Origin: Thermoplasmata archaeon
Lineage (GTDB): Archaea; Thermoplasmatota; Thermoplasmata; Lutacidiplasmatales; SKW197
Assembly: GCA_038874435.1 (NCBI GenBank)
Contig: JAVZCK010000001.1
Coordinates: 62,001 to 126,000 of the forward strand
Length of the DNA: 64,000 bases
Direction of reading: 5' to 3'
The notes below the pieces were generated by a model. That model was not told the DNA's origin. It saw only the letters and a list, made by a program, of their open reading frames with translations, and did no database searches. Shown one piece after another: positions 2,919 through 62,265 of the stretch (its first letter is position 1; each line of letters starts with the position of its first letter). Position numbers and translations under genes: made by a program.

Positions 2919-5174
2919 CTAAATTCTTCCAAGCTTCCCTTTGAGTTTTTTAACATAATAGCTGGCACCGATGGCCCCGAGAATTTCCAGGGCGCGGGCA
3001 TAGTATCGTTCTGCTTTTTCCATTTCATTCATTGCCTCATAGGTTCTTCCAAGTTCCCAGAGTTCACGACCAAGTTCGTACTGCACTCCCAGTGCCTGAT
3101 GAATCTCAAGTGCAAGCTCGAAGTATTCTATTGCGTTTAGATAATTTTTCAATTCTCGTTCTGCCCATCCTAGGACCCTGAATGCTCTCGCAGTTCCAAA
3201 CCTATTTTTGTTCATTCTGCATGTCTCTACAAATGCATAACATCGCTTCTTTGCTTCATCTATTTTGCCCAACTTTATCAGTGCAAAACCGTGATTGGTC
3301 TCTACCCACTGCACAAAGCTCTCGTTCTCTGTTTTTTTTGCATACTCTAATGCTTCTATGAATTTTGCATCTGCTTTGGCAAAATCCTCTTTCTGTACAT
3401 AGACCTCGCCCGCATTGCAGAGTGCTCTCCCCATGTCCAGGTAGTGCTTCCCTTTTTCAAAATTTTTGCATGCCATTGCATAATGCATCAACGCATCATC
3501 AAGGTTGCCTCTCATGTTGTACAGATTTCCAAGTTCCAAGAAAAGAATTCCATTTAACCATGTGTCATGAAGTTTCTGAGCAGTGCCAAGAGCTATGGAA
3601 TATTCATCCAGCGCTTTCCGCCAGTTTCCGAGACGAAGGTAAATGTATCCACAGCCCCTATGGGCCATTGCAATTTCCATTTCATGTTTCGAGCCGATTG
3701 CAATTTCCAGGGCTTTCTCATAAAATTTCAGGGCTTCCCAGTAATCAGCACGAAGATTTGCCAAATTCCCAAGTTTCAGATGGAGTGACGCATGAAGCTT
3801 TGCATCAGTTTTAACTACTGGTTCTTCAATCAACCTGTTGTATATTTCACCTGCCCTTTCAAACTCGCCCAGTCCGTAATATATGTCTCCTATTCTACTC
3901 TTAACTTCAGCTTGCAAAAAGATGTTACCGATGTATGCTGCACACTTCTCTGCCATCTTTAGAAATTCCAATGTGCGTTCGAATGCATATTCTTCATAAG
4001 ATAGCTCAGCGCTTCTCAGCAAATATCTAAGTGCAAGTTCGTAGTTTTCTCCGTGAAAATGATGGTATGCAAGTGCATAAATTTTTTCCTCACCTTCCCT
4101 GTATTTTCTAGATATGTATTCAGCAGCCATCTTATGTATATGGGCACGCACATCCTGTGGAAGTTGGGAATAGAGGTATGCCCGAATTACAGGAGTTTTA
4201 AACACATATTTATCTCCGACTTCTTCAATGACCTCAGAATTTATCAATTTTTCCAGAACATCTACGAGCTCTTCCTCGCTCTGATTGCACATCTTTGCCA
4301 AAAATCCCATTTCAAAGCTGAGTCCAATTACACTTGCAACTCTTGCCACTTCCAACTCTCGAGGGGATAATTTAGCGAGCTTGCTCTCAAATGATAGTTT
4401 AAGCTTTTCAGGTGCAATCAACCCAATTTCCCTATCTTTTTCCGCAGATAAATGTCTGCAGAGGTCCCGGATTAAGCCCGGATTGCCTCTGGAGTATGCA
4501 TAAATTTGTTCTAGAGTAAGGCGATTTGCGTCTTTCAAATACTTTTTAGCAACAGTAATACTCTCCTCCTTTCCTAGAGTTCCCAGACGTATTCTTACAC
4601 AGAGCTTCTCGGTATTTAGCATCGAAATCATTGTGACAATTCGCTCATTCTGATTTAGTTTTGCATCTTCTTGCGAATATGTGCACAATATCAGCAACCG
4701 TGACTGCTGCGCTTTCATTGTGAGATAGTGGAGCAGTCCCACACTTGATGCATCCATCCATTCGATGTTGTCAAAAAACAACACCAATCCTTCCGTGCTG
4801 ACTGCTTCCACAAATGCATAAACCTTTTCGTAGAGAAAACTCTGCGCTGTACGCAAATCAGGGATGTCCAGAGTTCTAGTTCCGAGAAAGGGCGCAAGCC
4901 CGAGAGGCACAAATTCTGGGTGCAGGTTCCTTATGTCATCGAGCATCTGAATAAAGGTGGAATAGGGGCGTCCCATGTCATATCTCCGAGCGTCTGCACC
5001 GACGAAGAGAATTCCCTTTTCTCTGCAGTATTCCTCAAATTTTTCACAGAGGTAGGTTTTTCCAACTCCATGCTCTCCCTCTATTATAACTGTGTTGCCC
5101 CTTCCTTTTTGCATCTCCTCGAGTATCCTTACCAGTTGTCGGAATTCGTTCTCTCTACCTATCATTTCCTCCAT
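2919..5174 (-). CDS. AAA ATPase with TPR array (STAND/COG3899-like)
   Basis: A signalling-type ATPase of about 751 aa, the first of three paralogues here. An N-terminal GREN-type AAA domain carries Walker A (GEHGVGKT, residues 33-40) and Walker B (VLFFDNIEW, about 131-139). A helical winged region follows to about 350, then TPR repeats to the C-terminus (YWEALKFYEKALEIA, NWRKALDEYSIALGTA, NYLNAIEYFELALEIH). No DNA-binding or catalytic effector domain is visible. The start at MEEMIGREN leaves an 11-nt gap after the upstream tail-anchored TPR protein, so the two are probably co-transcribed. Known relatives (MalT/AfsR type) oligomerise on ligand binding; the ligand and output here are unknown. 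Confidence 0.85.
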   Translation of the reverse strand: MEEMIGRENEFRQLVRILEEMQKGRGNTVIIEGEHGVGKTYLCEKFEEYCREKGILFVGADARRYDMGRPYSTFIQMLDDIRNLHPEFVPLGLAPFLGTRTLDIPDLRTAQSFLYEKVYAFVEAVSTEGLVLFFDNIEWMDASSVGLLHYLTMKAQQSRLLILCTYSQEDAKLNQNERIVTMISMLNTEKLCVRIRLGTLGKEESITVAKKYLKDANRLTLEQIYAYSRGNPGLIRDLCRHLSAEKDREIGLIAPEKLKLSFESKLAKLSPRELEVARVASVIGLSFEMGFLAKMCNQSEEELVDVLEKLINSEVIEEVGDKYVFKTPVIRAYLYSQLPQDVRAHIHKMAAEYISRKYREGEEKIYALAYHHFHGENYELALRYLLRSAELSYEEYAFERTLEFLKMAEKCAAYIGNIFLQAEVKSRIGDIYYGLGEFERAGEIYNRLIEEPVVKTDAKLHASLHLKLGNLANLRADYWEALKFYEKALEIAIGSKHEMEIAMAHRGCGYIYLRLGNWRKALDEYSIALGTAQKLHDTWLNGILFLELGNLYNMRGNLDDALMHYAMACKNFEKGKHYLDMGRALCNAGEVYVQKEDFAKADAKFIEALEYAKKTENESFVQWVETNHGFALIKLGKIDEAKKRCYAFVETCRMNKNRFGTARAFRVLGWAERELKNYLNAIEYFELALEIHQALGVQYELGRELWELGRTYEAMNEMEKAERYYARALEILGAIGASYYVKKLKGKLGRI

Positions 5175-6729: not shown

Positions 6730-7611
6730 ATGAAGATTGGGATTCTCACATATGATGATGAGTGGGTGCAGGAATTAATCCATAAATTGAGTCTGCATTT
6801 AGAAAATGTAGAGATAAGGGTTATTGGAATTTCAGAAGTCGCCCTCTCCAAGCCCATTGAGTACGACATAATTCTAGACAGACAGTCCTACCTTGAACCG
6901 TATCTCAGATGTGCAATGAAGCATGCGGCCCTGCATGGAACCTATGTGATAAACAATCCTTTTTCTTGCTCGTTGGATGACAAATTTTTTTTCTATGGGA
7001 TTGCTGAGAAGCTGGGAATGAAGGTGCCTAAGACCTTGATGCTCCCTCCATTTGATCCCGACTACGAGTTTGGACATGTGCTGCCACCGATATCGTGGGA
7101 TTGGGTGAAGAAAGAGATAAGCTTTCCAGCGGTGTTAAAGCCTGTGAATGGATATGCCTGGCGGAATGTTTTCTTTGTCAATACCCTGGAGGACCTCGCA
7201 GAGATTTACAAACAAACTGATAATGAAACCATGATTTTGCAGGAAAAAGTTGCCTACGAAGAGTATGTGCGCGCGTTTGTAATTGGCAAGAAGCATGTAT
7301 TGCCAGTTAAGTATGTGCCCAGCGAACGAAAGTATGTTTACACAAATAACTTTCTCTCACTAGAGATGCACCAAAGAATTGTAGAAATCTGCACAAAGTT
7401 AAACACTGTGCTCGACTATGACATCAACACAGTAGAGATAGGGATTGCAGGAGGGATTCCCTATCTCATTGATTTCTCGAATTATGTCCCAGAAATAAAA
7501 ACCTATAATCTTCCTTCGGAGTATTATCGATGGATTGTTGATAAGATTGCAGAAATGATAGCAGAATATGCAAAAAATTGTGTAAAAAACAGAAACATGT
7601 TTTTATTCTAA
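6730..7611 (+). CDS. ATP-grasp ligase-like protein, substrate unknown
   Basis: 293 aa. The N-terminal Rossmann-like segment (MKIGILTYDDEW) and the central ATP-grasp parts are visible: a lysine strand (FPAVLKPVNGYAWRNVFFV, about 136-154), the QEKV strand, and a metal-binding end (NTVEIGIAGGIPYLIDFSNY). This matches RimK/D-Ala-ligase-like carboxylate-amine ligases in outline, but no known subfamily is clear. It sits 6 nt after pdaD, so an amine such as agmatine or a downstream polyamine is a reasonable substrate guess. The 3' end overlaps the convergent KaiC-like gene by 9 nt. Confidence 0.7.
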   Translation: MKIGILTYDDEWVQELIHKLSLHLENVEIRVIGISEVALSKPIEYDIILDRQSYLEPYLRCAMKHAALHGTYVINNPFSCSLDDKFFFYGIAEKLGMKVPKTLMLPPFDPDYEFGHVLPPISWDWVKKEISFPAVLKPVNGYAWRNVFFVNTLEDLAEIYKQTDNETMILQEKVAYEEYVRAFVIGKKHVLPVKYVPSERKYVYTNNFLSLEMHQRIVEICTKLNTVLDYDINTVEIGIAGGIPYLIDFSNYVPEIKTYNLPSEYYRWIVDKIAEMIAEYAKNCVKNRNMFLF

Positions 7612-8322
7612 GGGAATCTTTTCCTTGTGAATGACAATTCCTGTTTCGGTAATTTCATACATTAAGGGGTGTCTAGGGGTTTTTGTTGCCCGCAACTTTC
7701 TCACATACATCAGTTGGATTGGTCTTGTAGTGTAAGGGTCATGTTGGTAAGTGAGCCGTATAAATCCATGCATGGGTGCAGCGACAGCTCTTAGCACATT
7801 TGGCTCCACGGCTTCATCCATGATTAGAAGAGCAGTCAGTCGCTTTTCTCTAAAAGTGGTCATGATTTCAGTTGCGGTCTCCCGTGCCATCGTTGCATTC
7901 ATTGGTAGGAAGTATGGTGTAATTGTGTCTATGACTACACAGTCCACACCCGACGGGATAGCACTAAGGAGGTCCCTAAAACTCTGGATGAGATAGTCGC
8001 CAGTTGGAGTCGCAAACGAGGCCTCTATTGCCCTGTGAAGTGAAGTATCCACCACTTTCAATTCGTTGCCCACATACTTATCTAGTGGCATTCCAACCAA
8101 TGATGCCTGGAGTAAGATTGATTCAAGTGGTTCCTCTGTGGTCACTAACCCAACCTTATGACCGTCTTTGAGGGCTTTACTCATAAAATGGATTGAGAAA
8201 ATGGTTTTGCCAGTGCCTGGCTCTCCACTTATTAGATAGCTTCGGTCCTTTACAAAACCCTCAATAATCGCATCGAGATCTGGTACACCTGTCGGCATCC
8301 GCTCAACATGAATTTTAGACAT
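7603..8322 (-). CDS. KaiC/RadA-like RecA-superfamily ATPase
   Basis: A single KaiC domain of 239 aa. It begins with the family's TGVPDLDAIIEG and has Walker A GEPGTGKT (about residues 34-41) and Walker B CVVIDTITPY. No kinase-type second domain is present. A GAGGAG ribosome site precedes the ATG, with a TATA-like element at 8358-8367. Proteins of this family are widespread in archaea, and most have no assigned role; some regulate motility or transcription. It is transcribed alone. Confidence 0.85.
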   Translation of the reverse strand: MSKIHVERMPTGVPDLDAIIEGFVKDRSYLISGEPGTGKTIFSIHFMSKALKDGHKVGLVTTEEPLESILLQASLVGMPLDKYVGNELKVVDTSLHRAIEASFATPTGDYLIQSFRDLLSAIPSGVDCVVIDTITPYFLPMNATMARETATEIMTTFREKRLTALLIMDEAVEPNVLRAVAAPMHGFIRLTYQHDPYTTRPIQLMYVRKLRATKTPRHPLMYEITETGIVIHKEKIPLE

Positions 8323-8357
8323 AATTTCACTCCTCGATAGAGAGAGTATAAAATGGG

Positions 8358-8367
8358 ATAATATATA
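8358..8367 (-). promoter_or_regulatory. TATA box for the KaiC-like gene
   Basis: TTATATATTA on the minus strand, centred about 42 nt before the ATG. This allows a short leader holding the GAGGAG site. A second TATA-like string (8346-8353) is too close to leave room for it. Confidence 0.5.
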
Positions 8368-8426
8368 ACTTGCCTCTATTTGGCAATCTTTGTTTCATTG
8401 CGTCTCTGTGGTGCCATGGGAAAATC

Positions 8427-8434
8427 CTTTTATC
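8427..8434 (+). promoter_or_regulatory. TATA box for the cyclophilin-like/cgi121 operon
   Basis: CTTTTATC lies about 27 nt before the ATG at 8457, the spacing of a leaderless archaeal transcript. It supports that ATG over the longer open frame upstream. Confidence 0.5.
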
Positions 8435-8456
8435 TATTGTGTTCATCTCGCATACT

Positions 8457-8831
8457 ATGGCAAAATTCGTTATTGAGACAAGGAGCACCGGGTGTGTCGA
8501 AGCAGAGACCACAGGTGAGAATCCCAACACTGCGAGTAAAATCTTGGCAGCAATTCCATTCAAAGGTAAAGCAAGTTTCTGGGGCGATGAAATTTACTTC
8601 GAAATCCCAGTTGAAGCAAATTTAGAGAGTGGGCGAGTTTATGTGGAGGTAGGAGATATTGCCTACTGGCCAGAGGGTAAGTGCCTCTGCATCTTCTTTG
8701 GAAAAACTTTGAGTAGTGAGGATGAAAGACCAAAGGCATACTCCCCAGTAAATGTATTTGCGAAAATTCAGAAGCCAGAAATTTTTAAGAAGGTAAAAAA
8801 TGGAGAAGAAATTGTTGTTAGAAGGCCTTGA
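8457..8831 (+). CDS. cyclophilin-like domain protein (PF04126/DUF369 type)
   Basis: A 124-residue beta-rich protein. Recognisable parts are the N-terminal strand AKFVIETRSTG, then GENPNTASKILAAIPFKGKASFWGDEIYFEIP, VEVGDIAYWPEGKCLCIFFG and the PVNVFAKI end strand. This is the small cyclophilin-fold family found in archaea and Thermotoga, whose function is unknown; peptidyl-prolyl isomerase activity cannot be assumed. The open frame extends 29 codons upstream, but the TATA box and family length place the start at MAKFVIETRS. It overlaps cgi121 by 32 nt, so the two are translated together. Confidence 0.75.
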   Translation: MAKFVIETRSTGCVEAETTGENPNTASKILAAIPFKGKASFWGDEIYFEIPVEANLESGRVYVEVGDIAYWPEGKCLCIFFGKTLSSEDERPKAYSPVNVFAKIQKPEIFKKVKNGEEIVVRRP

Positions 8832-9294
8832 TTACGAAATTTTCGGGGCCGAAGGTAAGAGTAAGGACATAGTACCAAAGCTAAAGGAGATTTCACAAAG
8901 AATCATCGTTTTTGATGCTGACTGGGTTCTTGGTAGAGTTCACATTAAATTTGCCTTGTTCCATGCCCGGAGGGCCTTCGAAAAAAAAATTCATAAAGTA
9001 AATACTTTTGAAAATTGCGTTCTTCTTTATGTTGGTCTCTCCAGCCAAATTTATGAGGCGAGAAGAAATGCAGGTGTGAAGCCAGAAACTAGAAGGTTTG
9101 CGATCGTATCACCTCGAGACATTGAAAAGGTCCGAATCCTGAATGTTCTCGACCTTGAGGAGCGTGAGGAGGTAATTCAGTTTAGCGAGGCAAAAGCCAG
9201 GAGGGTTTTTTCACAAGAGGAGCTCGAGGCAACACCAATTGTGAAATGGCAATATCTAGTGCTTGAGAGAATGGCACTATTGAACCTACCATAA
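8800..9294 (+). CDS. cgi121: KEOPS complex subunit Cgi121
   Basis: 164 aa. The protein matches Cgi121 in outline: DADWVLGRVHIKFALFHARR, then ENCVLLYVGLSSQIYEARRNAGV, where the family has a conserved His/Ala helix followed by the xQI..A....G tract. In archaea Cgi121 binds Bud32 and helps bring the tRNA 3' end to KEOPS for t6A37 synthesis. Sua5, which makes the donor threonylcarbamoyl-AMP, is at 34942-35961; Kae1 and Bud32 are not in the window. AAGGT lies just upstream of the ATG. Confidence 0.75.
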   Translation: MEKKLLLEGLDYEIFGAEGKSKDIVPKLKEISQRIIVFDADWVLGRVHIKFALFHARRAFEKKIHKVNTFENCVLLYVGLSSQIYEARRNAGVKPETRRFAIVSPRDIEKVRILNVLDLEEREEVIQFSEAKARRVFSQEELEATPIVKWQYLVLERMALLNLP

Positions 9295-9993
9295 CTACCA
9301 TGTCCAGCTCCAGGTATAGTTTGTATTGTTTGTAGAAAGCAGTTGCTTAAGATGGATGATTCTATGGGGAAGATTTCTCTGGGAAAGTTTCTTTGAGATA
9401 CCATCAATGTGACCCTCTCCCACAACGCAGACAATGTTTGTATATTCTTTTGCTAGCATTGAAATTCGCCAAGCCATGTAATCGTTTCTATCATCTATCA
9501 GAATTTTCTTGAGGGTTGGAAACTCTTTTCCAAACTCTTCAATTACCTTCGTTTCTGCTGTCATAAATTCCTCTATGCTCTTTTCTACCTTCTTCTTAGG
9601 TAAAAAAATTCCAAATAGAATGCTAGCAAGAAGTTTTCCACGTTCCACAAACGACATCTCTCGCCAGATTCTTTCAGCGATAGTAACTGCATCTATGTCT
9701 ATAAATTCAAGTTTTGCGTTCAAGCTTCTCGCAGCATGTATTGCAGCGAGCATTTCCATACCTGGCTCAGTCTCAAATTTGTCAGCTATAATTTTCTGAA
9801 ATACCGCAAGCATCTGATACATTACCGGCACATTTCTTCCCGCTACCTCTTTGCTTTGATTTGGCTGTAAAAGTGCTTTTGCTCTATCTTGGTCCAATTC
9901 TATACAAACAATTTCTGGTTCTGCAGCAGCAATTTCATGTCTTACCTTTTCACTTATGTCGAAAACATGTCCCACACCGATAAGCACTATCAT
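9295..9993 (-). CDS. TraB/PrgY family protein
   Basis: 232 aa. It has the TraB hallmarks: N-terminal GVGHVFDIS, ELDQDRAKAL, a central IAERIWREMSFVERGKL region, DDRNDYMAWRI, and VVGEGHIDGI near the C-terminus. These GxGH/E motifs suggest a TIKI/TraB-type metal-dependent hydrolase fold. The transmembrane tail of longer archaeal members is missing; only one weakly hydrophobic stretch (LLASILFGIFL) is present. It is the last gene of the KaiC-like operon, 4 nt after the preceding stop. Its role is unknown. Confidence 0.85.
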   Translation of the reverse strand: MIVLIGVGHVFDISEKVRHEIAAAEPEIVCIELDQDRAKALLQPNQSKEVAGRNVPVMYQMLAVFQKIIADKFETEPGMEMLAAIHAARSLNAKLEFIDIDAVTIAERIWREMSFVERGKLLASILFGIFLPKKKVEKSIEEFMTAETKVIEEFGKEFPTLKKILIDDRNDYMAWRISMLAKEYTNIVCVVGEGHIDGISKKLSQRNLPHRIIHLKQLLSTNNTNYTWSWTW

Positions 9994-9997
9994 AAAC

Positions 9998-10744
9998 TTA
10001 CTTCATCGGCTTTGCAACGAACCCCTTCTCTCCGATTTCAAGTAGTAAAGTTTCTCCCTTCTCAGGGTGATTCCTCACCTTTTTCACAAAAAGCTTGAGA
10101 CGAGTTTCAAGCTGCGCCTTTTCCTTCTGGAGTTCCACCACGCAATCAGCAATCTCCTCGAGCCCACTCTGTGTTGCTCTATCGTAGACATCCTTTAACA
10201 TTGTGATACAAACCACACCGCCATGATGCTGAGAATGTGCCTTAATCAATCGCATTGTTGAAAGCACGTCGCTTCTGTCATAAATTTCCATAAAAAAATC
10301 AATTGAGTCTATCACTATTCTAAATGGGGGTTTAAGCCGTGAAACTCTATAATTTGCAAGGGTTAGAAAGTTCGTAGCTCTCATTTTGCTTTCATCAAGA
10401 GTTATGTTTTTAACATCATTCACACCAATACCTTCCTGACGATATTTGCTGATCTCCAACTCCTTTGCAAGAATTTCTTCATAGTACATTGTAGCAATGT
10501 TAACTATTTGCATATCAGACTTCCACCCGAACTCATGCATGGTGTTGATTATATCTTCTGTTCTTTCTGTAGTAGTAATGTAAAGCACATTTTCTTTACC
10601 AATTCCTGCAGTTGCAAACTGTTTTGCGAAAAGCTCAGTGCCGCTGCCCGGCTCTCCCGAAACCAGCAGGGTGTACCCTTTTGGTAAACCCTTCAACAGC
10701 GCCTCATCCAGTCCTTCTATTCCCACACTTACAGTTTCTACCAT
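9998..10744 (-). CDS. RecA-superfamily (KaiC-like) protein with altered P-loop
   Basis: 248 aa. It opens like KaiC (VGIEGLDEALLKGLPKGYTLLVS). Its P-loop reads GEPGSGTE (about residues 31-38), so the Walker lysine is replaced by Thr and the next Thr/Ser by Glu. The Walker B strand is kept (RIVIDSIDFFMEIY), as is the C-terminal KVRNHPEKGETLLLEIGEKG. It may bind nucleotide weakly or not at all. It lies between a P-loop-less relative and TraB in one operon (gaps of 8 and 4 nt), so a non-catalytic partner role for the intact KaiC-like protein is likely. Confidence 0.8.
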   Translation of the reverse strand: MVETVSVGIEGLDEALLKGLPKGYTLLVSGEPGSGTELFAKQFATAGIGKENVLYITTTERTEDIINTMHEFGWKSDMQIVNIATMYYEEILAKELEISKYRQEGIGVNDVKNITLDESKMRATNFLTLANYRVSRLKPPFRIVIDSIDFFMEIYDRSDVLSTMRLIKAHSQHHGGVVCITMLKDVYDRATQSGLEEIADCVVELQKEKAQLETRLKLFVKKVRNHPEKGETLLLEIGEKGFVAKPMK

Positions 10745-10752
10745 CTCACCAC

Positions 10753-11325
10753 CTATTTCACAATAATCGTATCATCGCAGACCAAGCTGAGCATGTTTGA
10801 GATTTCATCACTGTTCTTTTCCTCAACACCTAGTATGATAGTGAATACTCCCTTTGATTTAAGGTTGTTCACAAGAATGTGCAAGAACTCTGCCAGGATT
10901 CGATTGCCATTGTGAATTGCAAGAGTGTTGATTGAATCCAGAATCAGGAGTTTATTCTCATTTGCCAGCTTTTTCAGCAGAAACTCAATTTTCAGCAGTA
11001 TGTTTTCAAGCATTGTTGGGCTCTCGATGTAAGTTGTTCGCTCCATCTGGGTGGAAACATTCATCATGATGTGGGAGATTGCATCTACGAAGTAGATGTT
11101 GCTTACGTCCACCTCAAACATTTCAAACAGGTTCTTGCAGAGATGGGAAGGAGTGGTAGTGGTGACATAGATACAGGTGTATCTCCTTTCAGGCATGAAT
11201 TCCTTGAGCACGCCTGTAAGTGCCGCCACATAATTGTCCGCAAAGTTAGTTTCACCGATTTTCAGGGCTATTGAGGATCCATCAGGCATACTCTTCAGTC
11301 GTTCTGCTACTTCTGTGCTCTTCAT
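10753..11325 (-). CDS. RecA-fold protein without a P-loop
   Basis: 190 aa. No Walker A is present: the position that should hold it reads IALKIGETNFADNYVAAL. The rest follows the RecA/KaiC layout: YTCIYVTTTTPSHLCKNL, a Walker B-like strand KLLILDSINTLAIHN, and the closing FTIILGVEEKNSDEI strand. Its ATG overlaps the stop of the upstream intact KaiC-like gene (ATGA), so the two are translationally coupled. Probably a regulatory or structural partner; a truncated KaiC relic is less likely because the frame is intact. Confidence 0.7.
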   Translation of the reverse strand: MKSTEVAERLKSMPDGSSIALKIGETNFADNYVAALTGVLKEFMPERRYTCIYVTTTTPSHLCKNLFEMFEVDVSNIYFVDAISHIMMNVSTQMERTTYIESPTMLENILLKIEFLLKKLANENKLLILDSINTLAIHNGNRILAEFLHILVNNLKSKGVFTIILGVEEKNSDEISNMLSLVCDDTIIVK

Positions 11326-12092
11326 TTTTCTGCCCCCATTCCACCCTTCAGCAGTGGCACAAGGAGAATGCCTATTGGTGTGAGGTCAAGCACATACTTT
11401 GCTCTCGAATGGCTCGTTCCTCTCATTTTCACAACTTGAAGGGTTCTTAACAGATCGCCCTTCCTTTCTAGATTTCCTAATATAATTATTCCGTCTGCAA
11501 TTGCTTCTTCGACACCATACATTGAATACCGCTGTTCTGCTGGTGAAATTTCAGAAACAAGTAAGCTCGTGCAACCAAAGTCAGAAAGTGCCTTTCCTAA
11601 CTTTAGAATAAACTCTCTAATTTTCTCCTCAGTTTTCAACTGGAAGCAAACAGAGGTAACAGAATCTATTACAAGCCGTTTAATCTGGAGTTCTCGCACA
11701 ATCCCCGAAATTGCGCTCACAAGCATGTGGATTTCTTCAAATGTAAACTCAGTTTTTCGTAATCCAAGGCGTTCATAGAGTGCGGGCATGTCTATAAAAA
11801 CAAGTAAGCCCTGCTCAATCAATCTGTCATCAAAGAACTCGTAAGGAATTAAGTTTGCAAGGAGCTTGGATGACGGCTCAGTAACTGAAATGAAGAGGCA
11901 CTTTTCACCGCTTAGAGCTCCATGAACTAGAAATTCTAGAGAGAGTGTAGTTTTGCCAGTGCCACAGCTACCGGTGACAAGAATTGTGTTTCCTCTGGGT
12001 ATCCCACCATTTAGAATGTTGTCCAGGCCTTCAATTCCGGTCTTGCATCTTTCCCTTTGAACCCCTTTCTTCTCAGCTAATACATCAGTCAT
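11322..12092 (-). CDS. KaiC-like ATPase (intact)
   Basis: 256 aa from the first ATG; a TTG four codons upstream is also in frame. It carries TGIEGLDNILNGGIPRGNTIL, Walker A GSCGTGKT (about 42-49), the catalytic-glutamate region ISVTEPSS, Walker B RLVIDSVTSV, and the end strand VVKMRGTSHSRAKY. This is the archetypal single-domain archaeal KaiC homologue. It heads a four-gene minus-strand operon with two degenerate relatives and TraB. Confidence 0.85.
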   Translation of the reverse strand: MTDVLAEKKGVQRERCKTGIEGLDNILNGGIPRGNTILVTGSCGTGKTTLSLEFLVHGALSGEKCLFISVTEPSSKLLANLIPYEFFDDRLIEQGLLVFIDMPALYERLGLRKTEFTFEEIHMLVSAISGIVRELQIKRLVIDSVTSVCFQLKTEEKIREFILKLGKALSDFGCTSLLVSEISPAEQRYSMYGVEEAIADGIIILGNLERKGDLLRTLQVVKMRGTSHSRAKYVLDLTPIGILLVPLLKGGMGAEK

Positions 12093-27728: not shown

Positions 27729-30296
27729 ATGAAACCCAGATTTGTGGGGAGGGAAAGGGAACTCACCCAGGTTTCTGTGGCCATTGAACAGGCGAGACAG
27801 GGAAAGGGGAGAATGTTTTTTATCACTGGTGAAGCTGGCATCGGAAAAACAAGGTTTCTTGAGGAGATTTCTAATGTAGCCAGAGAAAAGGGCATAAATG
27901 TATTTGCCAGTGCATGCATAGGTGAAAATGCAGTGCCATATCTTCCTCTTGAAGATGCACTGAGAGCTAGGGTTGGGGGTGAAGAGACAGAGGTCATCCC
28001 ACTTGGCTTAACTCCAGCAACACTTGGCTTGCCTCAGGTATCAGAAAATGAGTATGCATCTGGAAAAACACGCATTCTTGAGAAATATCTTCGTAGGATT
28101 GAGGAAATAACGAGTAAAAATCCTGCAGTTCTACTGCTAGACGATTTGCAATGGGCAGACACAGGCACTTTGAGTTTTCTTCATTATCTATCAAGGTGCA
28201 TTTCTGAAATGCGGTTAGTTTGTCTGTGCGCCTTTCTGGATGCACATGGTGAGCAAAACGAGACAATGAAAACCGTTCAGAATATCAACATCGAGAGAAA
28301 TTGCACTCTAATACATCTGGGACCTCTTCCGATAGATGCAGTGGGCAAGATTTTGACGGATATGCTTGGCACATGGAAAATTTCGGAGCGATGCCTTGCT
28401 GAGGTTTACGACAGATGTGGAGGAAACCCGCTTTACGCAGAGGAACTCTGCAAGGTAATCGTGGAACAGAACCTTTTCGATCCAGAAAAACATGATTTTA
28501 AAGCACCAATTACTCAGTCCGAGATACCTGAGACGGTCAGAAGCATGGTCTCATTTCGTATAATGAAACTGGGAGAAGAAGCCCAAAAGGTTTTAAAAAC
28601 CGCTGCAGTCATAGGAAGGGTGTTTGAATATTCTCTCTTGGAAAGATTGTCGGATGTAAAAAACGAGGCACTTCTTGAAACCCTTGAGAAATTAATCATT
28701 GAAGATTTTTTGAGAGAAGAACCAGGTGGAGAAGAAAAATATAGATTTTCCCAAAACCTGATGTACGAAGTTGTTTATTCGGAAATCTCTACACCTAGGA
28801 AAAGGTTGCTCCACAAAAGAACTGCGGAACTTCTTGAGAGTAGATACGGTAGCTCTCCTAAAATTTCTCCTGAAATTGGGCGTCATTACATGGAAGCAGG
28901 TGTTTTTGATAGAGCCGCCAAATATTATTATGCTGCAGCAGAATATAGTTTCAAGCAGTATACACTTGAAGAATGCATAAATTATGCGAAAATCGCTGAT
29001 GACTGCGTTAAAAAAATTGATAATGCAGATGCCTGGAAGGGGTTGAGATACCAACTGCTAGTGACCCTGGGTAAAGCTTATACACTCCTTTCAAAATTTG
29101 ATGATGCGGTTATTGCATTTGAAGAAGCAGTGGGATTTGCGAACGACAGCAACGGAGTGGCTGAGGTAAAAATGCTGCTCTGTGAACCACATCTCGGAAA
29201 GGGAAATGCAGACAAAGCAATGGAAATTGCAAATGAAGTGCAGAAACTTGTAGAAACACTAGAAGACAAGAAGCTCCTTGTGAAATCCCTCCTAAGTGTA
29301 GGCTGGGTCTATGAGAGAATGGGAAGTTATGTTGAGGCAGTTCTGAATTATGAAAAGGCCACTGTGATCGCCCAGGAATTAAACGATGAAAAACTATTAG
29401 GTGATGTGTATCACAGATTTGGAACTGCACTCATTTTCAAGTCAGATCTTGAAAAAGCGAAGGCCTATCTGGAAAAAGCGCTTGAGATTCGAAAGAAATA
29501 TGGTGAAAAGGAATTGATAGCGGGGACATACAACAACCTAGCGATTGCTGTAGACTATCTTGGCGATATCGATGCATCTCTCGAATATTACATCCAGTCA
29601 AAGAAAATTTACGAGGAAATTGGAGATGTTAGGGGTGTTGGAACCCTTTACAATAATATTGGTGGGATTTATTTGATAAAGGGAGAAATGGAAAAAGCAA
29701 TGGATTTTTACAACAAGTATTTCCAAATTGCAATGAAAATTGGAGACCTTGAGTCAATGTCCATTGCATGCTCTAACATTGCATGGATTTATGCAGATGA
29801 GAAGAAATATGATGGCGCACTTGAGTATTTGTATAGAACTATAGAACTTGCAGAAAAGACAAAAAACAAAGATATGCTTGCCCTTGGATTCTGTTACCTT
29901 GCGGAAGCCCTTGCAGCAAAGGGAAAGATTGAGGAGGCAATGAAAACAGCAAAAAAAGCAAGAGAGGTTGCCATTCAGACGGGGAGCGGTGAACTGGAAG
30001 GCCAAGTTGAAAGTACCTATGGAACGATTTACAAATTTTCGGGAGATTTTGATAAAGCGGAAGAGTATTTTAAGCGAGCTATAGGAATCTTTGCAAATCT
30101 GACAATGCCTCAAAATGTCAATTCTAACAGAGTCTATCTGGGAGAGGTGTATTTATTACAAGGTAGAAATTTAGAAGCAATAGAAATTTTAAGTGAAGCA
30201 AAAAAATATTACGAGAAAATTGCTGCTAAACGAATGCTAGAACGAATTGAGAATTTTTTGAAACAATCTAAAAATAACGCACATTCTCAGGTTTAG
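27729..30296 (+). CDS. AAA ATPase with TPR array, second paralogue
   Basis: 855 aa. An AAA domain starts at FVGRERELTQV with Walker A GEAGIGKT (34-41) and Walker B AVLLLDDLQWAD (133-144). A winged-helix/lid region runs to about 400. A long TPR array follows with many clear units (AKAYLEKALEIRKKYG, SLEYYIQSKKIYEE, AMDFYNKYFQIAMKIGD, AEEYFKRAIGIFANL). It matches the ATPases at 2919-5174 and 43540-46320 throughout, with the same ~95-residue Walker A-B spacing as the first. The open frame extends 84 codons upstream, but that part overlaps xerA on the other strand and lacks protein character. Confidence 0.87.
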   Translation: MKPRFVGRERELTQVSVAIEQARQGKGRMFFITGEAGIGKTRFLEEISNVAREKGINVFASACIGENAVPYLPLEDALRARVGGEETEVIPLGLTPATLGLPQVSENEYASGKTRILEKYLRRIEEITSKNPAVLLLDDLQWADTGTLSFLHYLSRCISEMRLVCLCAFLDAHGEQNETMKTVQNINIERNCTLIHLGPLPIDAVGKILTDMLGTWKISERCLAEVYDRCGGNPLYAEELCKVIVEQNLFDPEKHDFKAPITQSEIPETVRSMVSFRIMKLGEEAQKVLKTAAVIGRVFEYSLLERLSDVKNEALLETLEKLIIEDFLREEPGGEEKYRFSQNLMYEVVYSEISTPRKRLLHKRTAELLESRYGSSPKISPEIGRHYMEAGVFDRAAKYYYAAAEYSFKQYTLEECINYAKIADDCVKKIDNADAWKGLRYQLLVTLGKAYTLLSKFDDAVIAFEEAVGFANDSNGVAEVKMLLCEPHLGKGNADKAMEIANEVQKLVETLEDKKLLVKSLLSVGWVYERMGSYVEAVLNYEKATVIAQELNDEKLLGDVYHRFGTALIFKSDLEKAKAYLEKALEIRKKYGEKELIAGTYNNLAIAVDYLGDIDASLEYYIQSKKIYEEIGDVRGVGTLYNNIGGIYLIKGEMEKAMDFYNKYFQIAMKIGDLESMSIACSNIAWIYADEKKYDGALEYLYRTIELAEKTKNKDMLALGFCYLAEALAAKGKIEEAMKTAKKAREVAIQTGSGELEGQVESTYGTIYKFSGDFDKAEEYFKRAIGIFANLTMPQNVNSNRVYLGEVYLLQGRNLEAIEILSEAKKYYEKIAAKRMLERIENFLKQSKNNAHSQV

Positions 30297-38520: not shown

Positions 38521-38632
38521 TGAAGGTTGAATGCCATGAAACTATCTAAAAGTTTGGGTGGGCGAACAATTATATAATCACTCGTAATATCCTACTTAGA
38601 AATCCTAAATCGGCAGCTTGGAATGTGGATGT

Positions 38633-39151
38633 ATGAAGGCAGCGAATGTTGTGGTGCTTGGAGAAGCGGGTGTCGGAAAAACGGCGTTAATTCAGCGTTT
38701 AGTATCAAATGTGTTCACACTTGGCTACCACGCCACAGTGGGTGTTAGAGTGAGTAGGAAAGATTATTTTCCATGCGCAATTTCATTTTATTTCTACGAT
38801 GTCCAAGGAGTGCATATGCCCGATACACTTCTAGAGACCTACCTTCAAAATGCTGATGCCTACATTCTTTTGTGTGATGCTGCAAGACGGCGAACCTACA
38901 GTAGTATGGAATTTTACTGGGCAGAGAAGATAAAGCAGGAGAGGCCAGTGATACTCGTTGAAAATAAAGTTGATATGGTAAAAAATCTTGTAGCTCATGC
39001 AAAGTCCCTTTTCAGGTTAGAGCAGAAAATGCGTGCAAAAGGTATAAATGTTTGCTATTCTACAATAACAAGTGCAAAAACGGGCTTTCGTGTGAGCAAA
39101 ATTCTCCAGAAAGTAGGTGAGGCATGTCTCAGAACATACTCTTACCAGTAG
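38633..39151 (+). CDS. Ras-like small GTPase
   Basis: 172 aa. All five G motifs are present: G1 GEAGVGKT (10-17), a switch I threonine in HATVGV (T35), G3 DVQG (56-59), G4 NKVD (111-114) and G5 TSAK (146-149). Spacing is that of Rab/Ras-type proteins rather than of translation GTPases. Where Ras has Gln61 this protein has Val-His after DVQG, so hydrolysis may be slow or need a partner. No lipid-modification signal is apparent. A TATA-like ATTATATAA lies at 38570-38578. The start at MKAANVVVLG is chosen over an in-frame TTG. It overlaps the V4R/DUF835 gene by 28 nt. Confidence 0.9.
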   Translation: MKAANVVVLGEAGVGKTALIQRLVSNVFTLGYHATVGVRVSRKDYFPCAISFYFYDVQGVHMPDTLLETYLQNADAYILLCDAARRRTYSSMEFYWAEKIKQERPVILVENKVDMVKNLVAHAKSLFRLEQKMRAKGINVCYSTITSAKTGFRVSKILQKVGEACLRTYSYQ

Positions 39152-40149
39152 AAACAATTCGAATTTGGCAGCAAATTCTGTTCAAAAAGGAGGGTGAAGG
39201 TGGACAGAAGCAGCACTGGTTCCTTGTTGGACGCCTTGTAGGAATGGCTTTAGCGAAGGAGTTGCTTGGAAAGGGTAAGCTAGAAAATTACATTTCGCAG
39301 ATAGAAGCTGTGTGGAGGGGAAGTGGATATTCTAAAATTCGACTGGAGGTGAGGGAAGATGGCGTTCATGCGTATCTAGCGGAATTGTTCCCAGAGTTTT
39401 TCCCTGAACACCCATATGCTGCTGGAACCCTTGCAGGTATAATTGTTTACATTACAGGGCAGCCCTATTCTACATTTGTTACAATCCAGAAGGAGAACAT
39501 CACCGAGATAATTCTTAAGAAAGGTGATGAGAAGCCGCAAGTGTTAAAGGAAGTAGAGATGGCAAGGAAAACTGTGACTGCAGAGATAAGTCAGGAAAAA
39601 GTAGAAGAAGAGGTGGTTGTAGAGGAAGAGACAGAGATGGAGCAGAGTGCATTTGAGGCGTTTGTGGATGAGCAGGGCATCGAAATCGGAAGAGTGAACA
39701 TCCTTGAAGATAGAGAAAAGGCAAAGGTAATTGTAGCCTCGCTTCAGAGAATTCCCTCCTGCAAAATTTTATACATCACTCAAACCCATCCAAAGCATGT
39801 GAAAAAGGACTTGCCTAATTTACATCAGATTATCTGGCTCAAAGAAGAGAGTGCAGAGAAAGGAGAGGGTTACATAGTGGTTTCGCCTTCGAGAATAGAG
39901 CATCAACTCGTGCAGATACCCAAAGAGTTCATTCTCGCCCAGAAATCTGAAAATAAGGACCCTGTGATTGTGCTAACTCACATTGAACCCTTCCGCTTCA
40001 CACTTCAGGATTGGGAAGCAAAGTTCATAAAATACATAACGAAAATCAACAATCTCTGTGCAGACTATGACTGCACAGGCATTCTTCTCATAGAGCCAGA
40101 AACACTCTCAAAGAACTTCATTTCTACACTGAAACATGTGCTCGCTTGA
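39124..40149 (+). CDS. V4R-like plus DUF835-like protein
   Basis: 341 aa. Residues 30-135 look like a V4R (TRAPP/Bet3-superfamily) ligand-sensing domain: FLVGRLVGMALAKELLG, then the hydrophobic HPYAAGTLAGIIVYITGQ. An acidic linker (150-180) follows. The C-terminal 150 residues resemble DUF835: GRVNILEDREKAKVIV, CKILYITQTHPKHVKKDLP, QIIWLKEE, and GILLIEPETLSKN, a RecA-like fold with no P-loop. The start lies behind AGGTGAGG inside the GTPase gene, so they are translated together and may act as a pair. V4R is inferred from pattern, not identity. Confidence 0.6.
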   Translation: MSQNILLPVETIRIWQQILFKKEGEGGQKQHWFLVGRLVGMALAKELLGKGKLENYISQIEAVWRGSGYSKIRLEVREDGVHAYLAELFPEFFPEHPYAAGTLAGIIVYITGQPYSTFVTIQKENITEIILKKGDEKPQVLKEVEMARKTVTAEISQEKVEEEVVVEEETEMEQSAFEAFVDEQGIEIGRVNILEDREKAKVIVASLQRIPSCKILYITQTHPKHVKKDLPNLHQIIWLKEESAEKGEGYIVVSPSRIEHQLVQIPKEFILAQKSENKDPVIVLTHIEPFRFTLQDWEAKFIKYITKINNLCADYDCTGILLIEPETLSKNFISTLKHVLA

Positions 40150-42514: not shown

Positions 42515-42575
42515 ATAACTCCTAGTTCAGCAAAATCCAAAAATGTTATATCTTGCTGTTGCATACCCAGTTCAG

Positions 42576-43502
42576 ATGAACACTGAGATTGAGGAATTGA
42601 TTATTGAGGTTCTAGAGAATTATGGCTATCATGTGATAAATGTGGCTGAAAAGATTATCCGTGCAGAGCGAAGGAGTGATGAAATTATTGTGACTTATGC
42701 ACTACCTGATGAAGTGCTGGAGGAGGCGGTCTGGGAGAGGATAACTAGAATCAGAAAAATCGTGGCCAGCACAAAACTTTTCATAAATCTCACACAGTGC
42801 CAGGATGTGCCTGAAGAGGTTCTAAGGACATTGAGGGAACAGAGCATTGTCCTTGTGTCAAGGGAAAACTTTGAGAGAGAAATTGGCAGGGTGAAGCTCT
42901 CAAAAATTCTTACGAATTATGAAGTAGTTGAGTCATCGGTTGACACTAGTGTTGATTTTTCTCCTGAGGAAAGGTTTTTTGTGCTGAAGGTTGATAGAAA
43001 TGGAATTGAAAAAGAGGGTGAAAAGGTTTCTGGTTTTAATTATGAACTCAGGTATGTGCCCCATCACCTCTTCACCTACTCATGCGAGATAAAAAGGAAT
43101 GGAATGGGGACGAAGATAGAAGGGCTTCTTGCGGTGGATGCATTGAACGGACAGATAAAGAAGTGGAGAAAGGTGCCTGGAATTGCGAGCATGCCTGAGT
43201 ATCCAGGTTCTTTGAAGGCAGTGGTGTTGAGTGCTGAGGAAGCCAAAACACTCTCAATTGAATGGATTTTGCACAACGAATCAAGGGAGATAAGTCCAGT
43301 GGAGATGAAAATTGATAACATCATAGTGATTGAAAAGAGGATGGAGCGTCCTGACCCAGAGACGATAGTGCTGAAATATCTTGGAATCTTTCATCTTCCA
43401 ATATGGTATGTGGAAGGAAGTGCTGGCGTTATGGTTGTGAATGCTGCCGAAGGCACAGTTATAGATATGGAATTTTTTGGATTGGGAAACCAAAATAGAT
43501 AA
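42576..43502 (+). CDS. conserved-looking protein of unknown function
   Basis: 308 aa. The first 110 residues alternate helix and strand (EELIIEVLENYGYHVINVAEKIIRA, RSDEIIVTYALPDE, SIVLVSRENFEREIG) in a way that recalls Mrr/Holliday-resolvase-like nuclease folds, but no catalytic motif is clear. The C-terminal half contains repeats like PepSY units (EGLLAVDALNGQIKKWRKVPG; AGVMVVNAAEGTVIDMEFFG). No signal or membrane helix. The start at MNTEIEELII is 27 nt after TATA-like GTTATATC. Confidence 0.6.
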   Translation: MNTEIEELIIEVLENYGYHVINVAEKIIRAERRSDEIIVTYALPDEVLEEAVWERITRIRKIVASTKLFINLTQCQDVPEEVLRTLREQSIVLVSRENFEREIGRVKLSKILTNYEVVESSVDTSVDFSPEERFFVLKVDRNGIEKEGEKVSGFNYELRYVPHHLFTYSCEIKRNGMGTKIEGLLAVDALNGQIKKWRKVPGIASMPEYPGSLKAVVLSAEEAKTLSIEWILHNESREISPVEMKIDNIIVIEKRMERPDPETIVLKYLGIFHLPIWYVEGSAGVMVVNAAEGTVIDMEFFGLGNQNR

Positions 43503-43539: not shown

Positions 43540-46320
43540 ATGAAAATTCCACCCAACTGTGAGTTTGTAGGAAGAGAGAAATACATAGAATACCTCAAAC
43601 AGAAGTTTGCAGGTGTGGAAAAGAATAGAAGCAAAATGATAGTGGTAATTGGAGACACAGGTGTAGGCAAAACGCGGATTGTAGAGGAATTCTTAAAGAA
43701 GGAGGCTAGAGATGCTTTTATCTTGAGAACTGCATGTGTTGCTGGGCTTGCTCTTCCATATTCTTCGTTGAGAAAAGCACTGGAGGGGCAGGGACTTGAG
43801 GACTTGCTCAAAATCGTGCAGAACCCAAGAATTGAGGCAATATTTGCTGTAACAAAATCTGGGCTTATGGTTTCAAAATTAGAACGAGAAGAAACAATTG
43901 ATTCAGATATTTTGGTAGGGATGCTTAACGCAGTTAGTGCGTTTGTGAGAGAATCTCTTTCCTACATCCGCAAATCTGCAGAAATCCGAGAGGATGTGCA
44001 GAGCATGCGTTACGGCGCCTTCAACCTTCTCAGTGTCCCAGGAGAACACCTGAATTTAGTTGCCGTGCTCACGGGCAAGGAAAACGAAAACTTGATCTTC
44101 GAGATGGACGAAATTCTTAAAAAAATTGAGGGAGAAAATAGGAGCTTGCTCATGAACTGGGATGGCAACATGACCAAAGCTGCGGGACTCACTAAGTATT
44201 TTTCAGTGCTCTTGACAGATGGAAGGTACTCAGGAGCTCCGATTGAAACTAACTTTCAAAGGTTGAACCTCTACGAAAATGTTCTTTATGGAATTAAGAG
44301 AAAGGCAGGCGGAAAAAAAGTGCTAATTTTTGTCGATGACTTGCAGTGGGTAGATGTTGAAACTCTGGAGTTTCTTAAATTTCTGTTGAGGAGTGCTGGA
44401 GAGCTGCCTATTTTCGTGCTTAGTACCTATAATGAGAATGCAAGTAATGTACAAGTTGAGAAGAGAATGCTTGAGCCGCTGGCAAAGGAGGAAAATCTGG
44501 AATATTTGAAAATAGAAGGTTTGAATCAAAATGAATTTTCTACATTCTTGGCCAAGGTGCTAGGATATGAACTAGACGATGAAGTTGTTTCTCAACTATT
44601 TACACAGACACGTGGTAACCCATTGTTTACGATAGAATTGCTTAAGGAAGTGAAAGATGAGAAGAAAATCGAGGCTGAAATCGCACGTTGGAAGTACGAA
44701 AAAAATCTCCCAAAGAGAATTTATGAAATTCTCGAGGAAAGGGTGCAGCGACTACCCCGAGAGGATATAGAGATACTCCAGTGTGGCGCGATAGAGGGCT
44801 ACGAGTTTTCTCCGGACACGGTATCAAGATTGTTGGAACTCTCAAAACTAAGCGTTCTTAGGAGGTTGAGTGCACTTGAGTCCAGCGGTTTCGTCAGTAA
44901 GGTGGATGAAAATCATTATAGGTTTGCTCATCCGATGTTGAGGGACACTCTCTATTCAATCCTTGATGAAGGGCTTAAGAAAGCGTATCATGAGTGCTTG
45001 GCTGAAATTTATGAAGCAGAGTATCTCGCAGGGAAACATGAGGCAATTCTGCGAATGGTTGAGCACTATCTATCTGCAGGCATAGCTTCAAAAGTGGAGG
45101 AATTTGCAGCAGTTGCTGGTAGGTATGCACTTGCAAATTTCGCGAATGAGAAGGCAGTGGAAGTTCTCAAGCGAGGGCTGGAAATAGCTAGTAGACCCGA
45201 AAAGAGAATGGAAATTCTCAGATTACTAATTGAAGCTCTTGAGAGCGATGCAAGATTCGGGGAAGAGATTGCGTTCATTGATAAGATGCTCGAGACCATC
45301 AAGGACAGTGAGAATAGCCGGGAAATTGCTTTTGCATGGAAAAAGAGGGCAGAAGCCCACATTGCAATTGGCGAATACACGACAGCACTGAAAGATGTTG
45401 AGCATGCTCTTTCTCTTAAGCCTGAGAAAGCACTCACTGGGAGATTGGTGTGTATCCAAGGGTTGGTGCATGAGCGAATGGCAGAACATGCTGAGGCAAT
45501 AAAGTATTATGAAGAGGCTGTTAGAATTCTGGAAAATACAGATAGTTATGGAGATATTGCCTATGTCCACATGCGTCTCGGCACAGCAAATCATTCTCTT
45601 GGGCGAATTGTAGAAGGTGAAAACAATTTGAAGAAAGCACTTGAAATTTATACAAAGATTGAGGATTTGCGGGGCATTTCTGCAACCTCAAACAATTTGG
45701 GGGAATTTTACAGAAGTCTGGGGGAGCGGGAACAGGCAAGAGAACATTACCTAAAAGCCCTTGAAATAGACAGGAGAATCGGAGACAGAAGAGGCCTTTC
45801 AGTGGTGTACAGCAGCCTTGGAGATATTGCACTGGATTACGAGGAGTATCCTGAGGCAATCAGGAATTACAATGAAAGTTTGAAGCTCTGTAGAAGGATA
45901 GACAACAAGTATGGAATTGCCTGGAATATCTGTGGAATTGCTGAAGCACTTGTGAAGACAGGGCAGTTTCAGGGTGTGATGGGAAACCTCACAACAGCAT
46001 TTGAGATTGCAAATAGGATCAATGCAAGGGATGTGGTTGGCTGGGCATATCGAGTGCATGCAGAGTACGAGGAGGCCACAGGCAATCTGGATGAGGCAAA
46101 ACTGCTTTATGCAAAAAGCGTGAGAATTTTTGAAGTTGCAGGGATGGAGATAGAGAAGGGCAAAACCCTTTGTGAATATGGAAGGATGCTGGTTGAAAGT
46201 GGCACGGAATCTGAAAGAGGAATTGAGCTTTTGATGAGTGCGAGAAGAATTTTCAAGGAAAAAAATGCAAAGAACTATCTTGCTAAGTGCAAGCGGGTGC
46301 TTGATAAAGTTGGGATTTGA
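43540..46320 (+). CDS. AAA ATPase with inserted roadblock-like domain and TPR array
   Basis: 926 aa, third paralogue. AAA start FVGREKYIEYL, Walker A GDTGVGKT (38-45), Walker B VLIFVDDLQWVD (261-272). The two paralogues have about 95 residues between these motifs; this one has about 220. The extra stretch (about 97-219) reads IEAIFAVTKSGLMVSKLERE, DSDILVGMLNAVSAFVRESL, GAFNLLSVPGEHLNLVAVLTG and ends LMNWDGN, the pattern of the roadblock/LC7-like sensor domain of archaeal regulators. The TPR array (about 560-920) is regular (EGENNLKKALEIYTKI, AREHYLKALEIDRRIGDRRG). The start is the ATG after an in-frame GTG. Confidence 0.85.
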   Translation: MKIPPNCEFVGREKYIEYLKQKFAGVEKNRSKMIVVIGDTGVGKTRIVEEFLKKEARDAFILRTACVAGLALPYSSLRKALEGQGLEDLLKIVQNPRIEAIFAVTKSGLMVSKLEREETIDSDILVGMLNAVSAFVRESLSYIRKSAEIREDVQSMRYGAFNLLSVPGEHLNLVAVLTGKENENLIFEMDEILKKIEGENRSLLMNWDGNMTKAAGLTKYFSVLLTDGRYSGAPIETNFQRLNLYENVLYGIKRKAGGKKVLIFVDDLQWVDVETLEFLKFLLRSAGELPIFVLSTYNENASNVQVEKRMLEPLAKEENLEYLKIEGLNQNEFSTFLAKVLGYELDDEVVSQLFTQTRGNPLFTIELLKEVKDEKKIEAEIARWKYEKNLPKRIYEILEERVQRLPREDIEILQCGAIEGYEFSPDTVSRLLELSKLSVLRRLSALESSGFVSKVDENHYRFAHPMLRDTLYSILDEGLKKAYHECLAEIYEAEYLAGKHEAILRMVEHYLSAGIASKVEEFAAVAGRYALANFANEKAVEVLKRGLEIASRPEKRMEILRLLIEALESDARFGEEIAFIDKMLETIKDSENSREIAFAWKKRAEAHIAIGEYTTALKDVEHALSLKPEKALTGRLVCIQGLVHERMAEHAEAIKYYEEAVRILENTDSYGDIAYVHMRLGTANHSLGRIVEGENNLKKALEIYTKIEDLRGISATSNNLGEFYRSLGEREQAREHYLKALEIDRRIGDRRGLSVVYSSLGDIALDYEEYPEAIRNYNESLKLCRRIDNKYGIAWNICGIAEALVKTGQFQGVMGNLTTAFEIANRINARDVVGWAYRVHAEYEEATGNLDEAKLLYAKSVRIFEVAGMEIEKGKTLCEYGRMLVESGTESERGIELLMSARRIFKEKNAKNYLAKCKRVLDKVGI

Positions 46321-61725: not shown

Positions 61726-62265
61726 ATGTTCAAGAAAAAGGAAAAACAAGATAGACGAAAGAAAATAATTGGAGCTATTATTGCAATCTCTACTTGTTGC
61801 ATTATACTTTTCTCAATTCTTTATGTTAACACACTACCACCTGAAGACTGGCCACCACCAGTAGGTGTGGTGCTCTTTCTTACTTATATTGACAAGAGTA
61901 AAGACATTGGTATATTCATATTTCATGTAGTGGGTACACCTGAAAACATTTCGGTGGTAAGATGCGACGCCATGAATGACTCACACAAATTTTCTTCCCT
62001 CCCATACAAGGTAGTGTATAGAGACCCCAATGCCACTACGATTAGGTCATACGATCTGTTCATTTTATATAACATTTCACGATATGCTGGTTATTTTCTC
62101 TTTGTCTTCCTGAATGGGACACTGCAGTATTGGTATCATGAGAAGGACTATCACAGCCCAGTGGAGTTGGCTCACATGCTCGATGGCCCTATTCCCGCTT
62201 CCTACCCGCCTGATGAAACCTTATGTAAAAAAGAGACCTATTCACGAGCGAAACCTTCAACTTAA
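61726..62265 (+). CDS. membrane-anchored protein, function unknown
   Basis: 179 aa. A basic N-terminus (KKKEKQDRRKK) precedes one helix (IIGAIIAISTCCIILFSILYV) and an outside domain of about 140 residues with several N-glycosylation-type sequons. No family is recognised. It starts 1 nt after the CLCA-like gene, behind GGAGTGGGG. This repeats the arrangement of the upstream pair. Confidence 0.65.
   Translation: MFKKKEKQDRRKKIIGAIIAISTCCIILFSILYVNTLPPEDWPPPVGVVLFLTYIDKSKDIGIFIFHVVGTPENISVVRCDAMNDSHKFSSLPYKVVYRDPNATTIRSYDLFILYNISRYAGYFLFVFLNGTLQYWYHEKDYHSPVELAHMLDGPIPASYPPDETLCKKETYSRAKPST

Follow-up and report, generated by a model that had tools for sequence, protein, structure and literature searches.

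A conserved domain nested in an archaeal STAND-type ATPase, a probable distant relative of roadblock and longin domains, and its Ras-like GTPase neighbours

In eukaryotes, roadblock and longin domains working with small GTPases have a central part in membrane traffic and in the sensing of nutrients; to our knowledge, discussion of their archaeal representatives has been mainly about the Asgard group. The Roadblock/LC7 fold runs alpha-beta-beta-alpha-beta-beta-beta-alpha and begins with an N-terminal helix. In STAND ATPases of the MalT type, the repeats act as ligand sensor and the NTPase alternates between a closed ADP and an open ATP state. Longins have no N-terminal helix and carry an additional C-terminal helix instead (PMC10933270). 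Known prokaryotic pairings with Ras-like GTPases include MglA with MglB and the conservons (PMC4316618), and a roadblock-related output domain, NitrOD3, has been reported in three response regulators of thaumarchaea (PMC5847659). A search of the literature, mostly outside the subscription journals, returned no report of AAA domains that harbour a roadblock or longin domain, nor of archaeal surface receptors with such a domain as their tail.

Here we describe a domain, probably of this general kind, from a Thermoplasmata archaeon. The window analysed is a stretch of 64,000 nucleotides (positions 62,001 to 126,000 of contig JAVZCK010000001.1, assembly GCA_038874435.1), to which all coordinates refer unless another contig or locus is named. 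An earlier sequence-only reading had proposed that one of its AAA-TPR ATPases harbours a roadblock-like sensor between the nucleotide-binding strands.

The nested domain and its host ATPase

The gene at 43540-46320 on the forward strand (ATG at 43540, stop codon at 46318-46320) encodes 926 residues with the layout of a STAND protein: an AAA_16 NTPase domain (PF13191, E 1e-19) with Walker A and Walker B motifs, then a TPR sensor (TPR_12, E 2e-34). Walker A, GDTGVGKT, occupies residues 38-45 (43651-43674), its Gly, Lys and Thr being invariant in alignment A2, and Walker B, VLIFVDDLQW, occupies residues 261-270 (44320-44349). Behind the AAA core lies a probable winged-helix region (residues ~391-475, 44710-44964), suggested by the sequence and by a weak three-sequence model with pLDDT mostly 57-91. 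Pfam TPR families then cover a superhelix at residues ~540-920 (45157-46299). No separate effector domain is recognisable at either end of the protein. The gene directly upstream (42543-43502) encodes 319 residues with no Pfam match, and its position is conserved in the sister genome (L229).

Two paralogous AAA-TPR ATPases in the window, at 2919-5174 on the reverse strand (PF13191, E 1e-22) and at 27729-30296 on the forward strand (PF13191, E 2e-23), served as controls without the insert. Walker A (residue 38) and Walker B (residue 261) are 223 residues apart in the 43540-46320 protein, against 98 and 100 in the paralogues, close to the lengthening from about 95 to about 220 residues that had been claimed. 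The Pfam AAA_16 match, unbroken in both paralogues, is split here by the insert. Family alignments A1 and A3, together with the profile-profile match described below, place the nested domain at residues 95-210 (43822-44169), a length of ~116 residues; alignment A3 and its propensity profile add a conserved C-terminal helix and an SGKYDG-like linker at residues 211-237 (44170-44250). The sequence-only reading had spoken of about 120 extra residues bearing four motifs, and all four are there in the order it gave. The helix and linker segment recurs in members without an AAA domain and lies outside the part that aligns with Robl_LC7. The insertion point comes after AAA strand 2 with its helix and before the Walker B strand. 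This is a usual variable region of AAA_16 proteins, so that contact of the insert with the active site is not required.

The insert is a real conserved domain, recurring beyond chance. In the organism's own genome (2.16 Mb in 43 contigs) it is carried by nine AAA-TPR ORFs, that at 43540-46320 included, at a constant offset after Walker A, with one of the nine (on contig C9) holding a degenerate form; a tenth copy is joined to TPRs in a protein that has no AAA domain. The sister genome contains nine copies. Homologues with the same insertion, whose search had been recommended, are thus found in eight further AAA-TPR ORFs of the same genome, and profile searches recovered relatives of the domain in 132 of 300 sampled genomes of the class and in 32 of 293 of the phylum. 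The window gene and its full-length sister copy are 90% identical over the insert, compared with 75% over the AAA region including the insert and 77% over the whole protein, from which it follows that the insert is more constrained than its host domain.

Two other copies in the same genome have individual peculiarities. An AAA-TPR copy with the insert at 7191-10214 of locus L224 (contig C2) is interrupted by a TGA, the first ORF being without Walker A, and may represent a pseudogene or an assembly error. The degenerate insert mentioned above (8342-11326 of locus L227, contig C9) lacks part of the central helix, as does its sister copy (L033), and is apparently decaying or diverging.

The domain is a module and not an element specific to AAA proteins. 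It forms the C-terminal cytosolic end of surface proteins with PKD or Ig-like repeats, right behind a membrane helix (L104 and L112, and the longer L248 and L251), the helices of such members having been read by eye from the sequence. Tandem pairs also occur behind membrane helices (L102, L108), and single copies are found behind a receiver domain (L116) and ahead of TPRs (L065). Searches with family members showed that no Pfam or NCBIfam model covers the domain, and the window insert has no significant sequence match in Pfam, NCBIfam or the PDB; its weak matches to SLATT_4, SlmA and a designed helix were judged to be due to chance. No homologue was found in the viral contigs scanned, and a contig scan with the full-length protein matched bacterial TPR relatives only. 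A role in a defence system was considered and set aside, PADLOC giving only generic TPR and NTPase matches.

Ras-like GTPase genes near the domain

A Ras-like GTPase had been said to lie some 5 kb from the ATPase. The gene in question (38618-39151, forward strand) does encode a Ras-family protein (PF00071, E 3.7e-18), a candidate partner located 4.4 kb upstream with several genes in between. It shares 28 bp with the next ORF (the pair spanning 38618-40149), and the protein encoded by that ORF ends in a DUF835-like region (E 1.1e-6, under the curated cut-off). This overlap makes the DUF835-like ORF a more obvious operon partner of the GTPase than the ATPase is. Within the window alone the GTPase link is weak and, given the distance of 4.4 kb, adjacency was tested over 12 genomes.

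The sample comprised 150 listed copies of the domain and the best 150 of 174 Ras-like GTPase matches, plus the window GTPase. Among the matches listed, a Ras-like GTPase gene on the same strand lies within 1 kb of at least 10 of the 150 copies, where random placement would give 0.92; the corresponding figures are at least 15 against 1.73 within 2.5 kb and at least 19 against 3.25 within 5 kb, the 12 genomes including close relatives and the counts being non-independent events. None of 2000 simulations of random placement reached the observed adjacency at 1, 2.5 or 5 kb. The association suspected from a single window is therefore seen genome-wide, and it is the pairing to be looked for in roadblock/longin platforms for GTPases. 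Nor is it a general trait of AAA-TPR genes: among the matches listed, a same-strand GTPase lies within 5 kb of 12 of the 59 insert-bearing AAA-TPR genes and of none of the 64 without it (Fisher p 8e-5). For the two sister genomes taken alone, the counts among the matches listed are 4 of 16 and 0 of 46, respectively.

Several of these neighbourhoods have an operon-like order. Two AAA genes and a GTPase gene follow one another with 4-bp gaps at one locus (L258), a GTPase gene precedes an AAA-TPR gene by 21-76 bp at three others (L253, L254, L255) and, in the organism's own genome, a GTPase gene, a gene for 97 residues and an AAA-TPR gene stand in a row (L226). Elsewhere (L248-L252) between one and six GTPase genes come after the gene for a surface protein. 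One of these loci (L252, 3130000-3149000 of contig C1 of genome G129) encodes a giant protein, with an open frame of 5179 residues and the domain at its C-terminal end; six Ras-like GTPase genes stand in tandem behind it, on its own strand.

The GTPases near the domain (L223, L250, L251, L252, L253-L258) are ~280-305 residues long, and most are extended at the C-terminus by ~110 conserved residues that match no Pfam family. The possibility that this extension is itself a roadblock/longin domain was rejected on hhalign scores of at most 0.5%, and it shows no similarity to PAS or receiver domains either.

We think it moderately likely that the insert is a docking or regulatory platform for Ras-like GTPases, nested in a MalT-like STAND ATPase whose sensor is made of TPRs. 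It could instead be a dimerisation or scaffolding module of roadblock/longin fold which assembles a STAND oligomer, with the neighbouring GTPases belonging to separate signalling islands and not binding to it, but this appears unlikely. Roadblock and longin domains usually form dimers, and not all have a GTPase role (PMC10933270), which would suit a scaffold, as would the fact that most copies of the domain, among the matches listed, have no GTPase nearby. Such a scaffold does not, however, account for the difference between insert-bearing and insert-lacking AAA-TPR genes (12 of 59 against 0 of 64 among the matches listed), nor for the copies in quite different proteins that also precede one to six GTPase genes.

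Relationship to roadblock and longin domains

Comparison by hhalign of the 49-sequence family alignment A3 with 46 archaeal Robl_LC7 proteins collected from relatives gave a score of 93.6% with an E-value of 2e-7, a figure for a single comparison that corresponds to ~0.005 over a Pfam-sized library. The match spans columns 4-89 and is collinear also when forced to be global. A second profile-profile run with a 16-sequence roadblock alignment gave 93.9%. All controls scored far lower (0-8.1%): the reversed alignment reached 0.9%, 20 column shuffles at most 2.1%, receiver domains 0.4% and PAS domains 0.5%, while among the longins, whose sequences were checked against PDB chains and whose profiles are very thin, adaptin sigma (two sequences) gave 0.7% and the TRAPP longins (three) 8.1%. 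Members nested in AAA domains score 94.1% alone and those of other architectures 75.3%. True roadblock subgroups score 99.8% against each other, compared with ~94% for the insert family, so the kinship is remote.

Direct matches to the Pfam model are fainter. Robl_LC7 is one of the two commonest weak Pfam matches of single members, obtained for 3 of the 49 with a best E of 0.029. Residues 1042-1094 of one copy (L256) match PF03259 directly with E 7.7e-4 and 19.6 bits. As the curated cut-off is 23 bits and the window insert gives no match, the domain falls outside PF03259 as curated. Taken together, the profile comparisons support a distant homology of the domain with Roadblock/LC7. The roadblock/LC7 assignment made in the sequence-only reading thus holds in part: the family profile and the L256 match provide the PF03259-type similarity whose absence would have spoken against it, but the window insert has no Pfam match of its own and its C-terminal helix points in a longin-like direction.

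Two features bear on the layout of the fold. In membrane-attached members the first strand begins a few residues past the membrane helix, leaving no space for the N-terminal helix of a roadblock. In addition, a C-terminal segment recurs in nearly all members: its Trp (in WDGD) is almost invariant, and the stretch that comes next is helix-prone according to alignment A3 and residue propensities. These point to a layout that is probably longin-like in a domain whose sequence is closer to roadblock, and we accordingly name it roadblock/longin-like. We infer the fold from sequence profiles, AlphaFold having given the insert a pLDDT of 33 alone and below 50 in an AAA region aligned with the two window paralogues. 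Most likely, the insert belongs to a widespread, as yet unnamed branch of the roadblock/longin superfamily in archaea.

It is quite improbable, in our judgement, that the domain is an archaeal invention that resembles roadblocks and longins only in the order of strands and helices and shares no descent with them. Against it stand a profile-profile score well above all controls, collinear along nearly the whole roadblock length, the direct PF03259 match of one copy (E 7.7e-4), and the association with GTPases that is expected of the roadblock/longin superfamily. What agrees with independent origin is the window insert itself, for which neither a significant direct match in Pfam or the PDB nor an AlphaFold structure model was obtained.

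A working model and its closest parallels

Under our preferred interpretation of the insert as a GTPase platform, the TPR superhelix would detect a ligand and the ADP/ATP switch would alter the exposure or dimerisation of the nested domain, which, once the ATPase has opened or formed oligomers, would bind or regulate a Ras-like GTPase. In this way the insert would provide the output for a STAND protein that lacks a separate effector domain; since neither end of the protein has a recognisable effector, the nested domain is the best output candidate. The reverse direction, in which the GTPase would control the ATPase, fits the data equally well. Like the fold, we infer GTPase binding, the direction of signalling and a coupling to ATP turnover. 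The mechanism suggested in the sequence-only reading, a putative small-molecule sensor that directly gates ATP hydrolysis, is very unlikely: although a position in the AAA core could couple the insert to nucleotide state and related folds bind ligands in other proteins, the family lacks PAS similarity (0.5%) and is found at the cytosolic end of surface proteins, in which it is the outer PKD/Ig parts that resemble sensors, so that a relay or output role fits better.

The domain probably couples sensors to small GTPases, since it also forms the tail of surface proteins and adjoins Ras-like GTPase genes beyond chance. A wider proposal, which we put forward tentatively as possible, is that it is the common adaptor of an undescribed form of archaeal signalling, in which giant surface receptors with the domain as cytosolic tail and STAND ATPases with the domain nested would both signal to arrays of Ras-like GTPases, in lineages where two-component response regulators are few or absent. 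The arrays near the domain reach six GTPase genes in a row, most members having the conserved C-terminal extension. AAA-TPR ATPases are hugely expanded in the organism's own genome and its sister (39 and 36 match places, respectively), and no receiver domain was found in either; taken together, this suggests that AAA-TPR ATPases may substitute for two-component signalling in the two genomes. A divergent branch of the superfamily spread across another archaeal phylum, as receptor tail and as nested part of an ATPase, would widen the view of where GTPase signalling arose, and would offer concrete receptor-GTPase and ATPase-GTPase pairs for testing.

How the locus compares with described systems depends on which of its parts is considered. 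As a STAND or MalT-like AAA_16-TPR ATPase, the 43540-46320 protein has the same Walker A, Walker B and GNP motifs and TPR array as the window paralogues, and differs from them in the ~116 additional residues that form a domain behind strand 2 and its helix, ahead of the Walker B strand. With longins such as TRAPPC1/Bet5 and adaptin sigma, the domain would share an extra helix at its C-terminus and not its N-terminus (PMC10933270), whereas profile scores to the three TRAPP and two adaptin sigma sequences are low, the profiles being very thin. NitrOD3 is likewise a roadblock-related domain joined to a receiver in archaea, as is the receiver-fused relative L116 of our family; compared by description, it differs in being known from three thaumarchaeal proteins only and in not being nested in an AAA domain (PMC5847659).

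The closest parallels are with Roadblock/LC7 proteins (PF03259; MglB, CvnB, LAMTOR2). The insert family has remote profile similarity to these over the first two strands, the central helix and the next strands and, as in MglA/MglB and the conservons, genes for the domain adjoin those for Ras-like GTPases (PMC4316618). It is set apart by the want of a significant direct match for the window insert, by the conserved C-terminal WDGD-helix segment and by its setting, nested in an AAA domain or forming the tail of a surface protein, where roadblocks are small stand-alone proteins. If the GTPase link is right, the insert, while not a PF03259 member by the curated threshold, would work in the same manner as the MglB/CvnB or TRAPP/Ragulator platforms.
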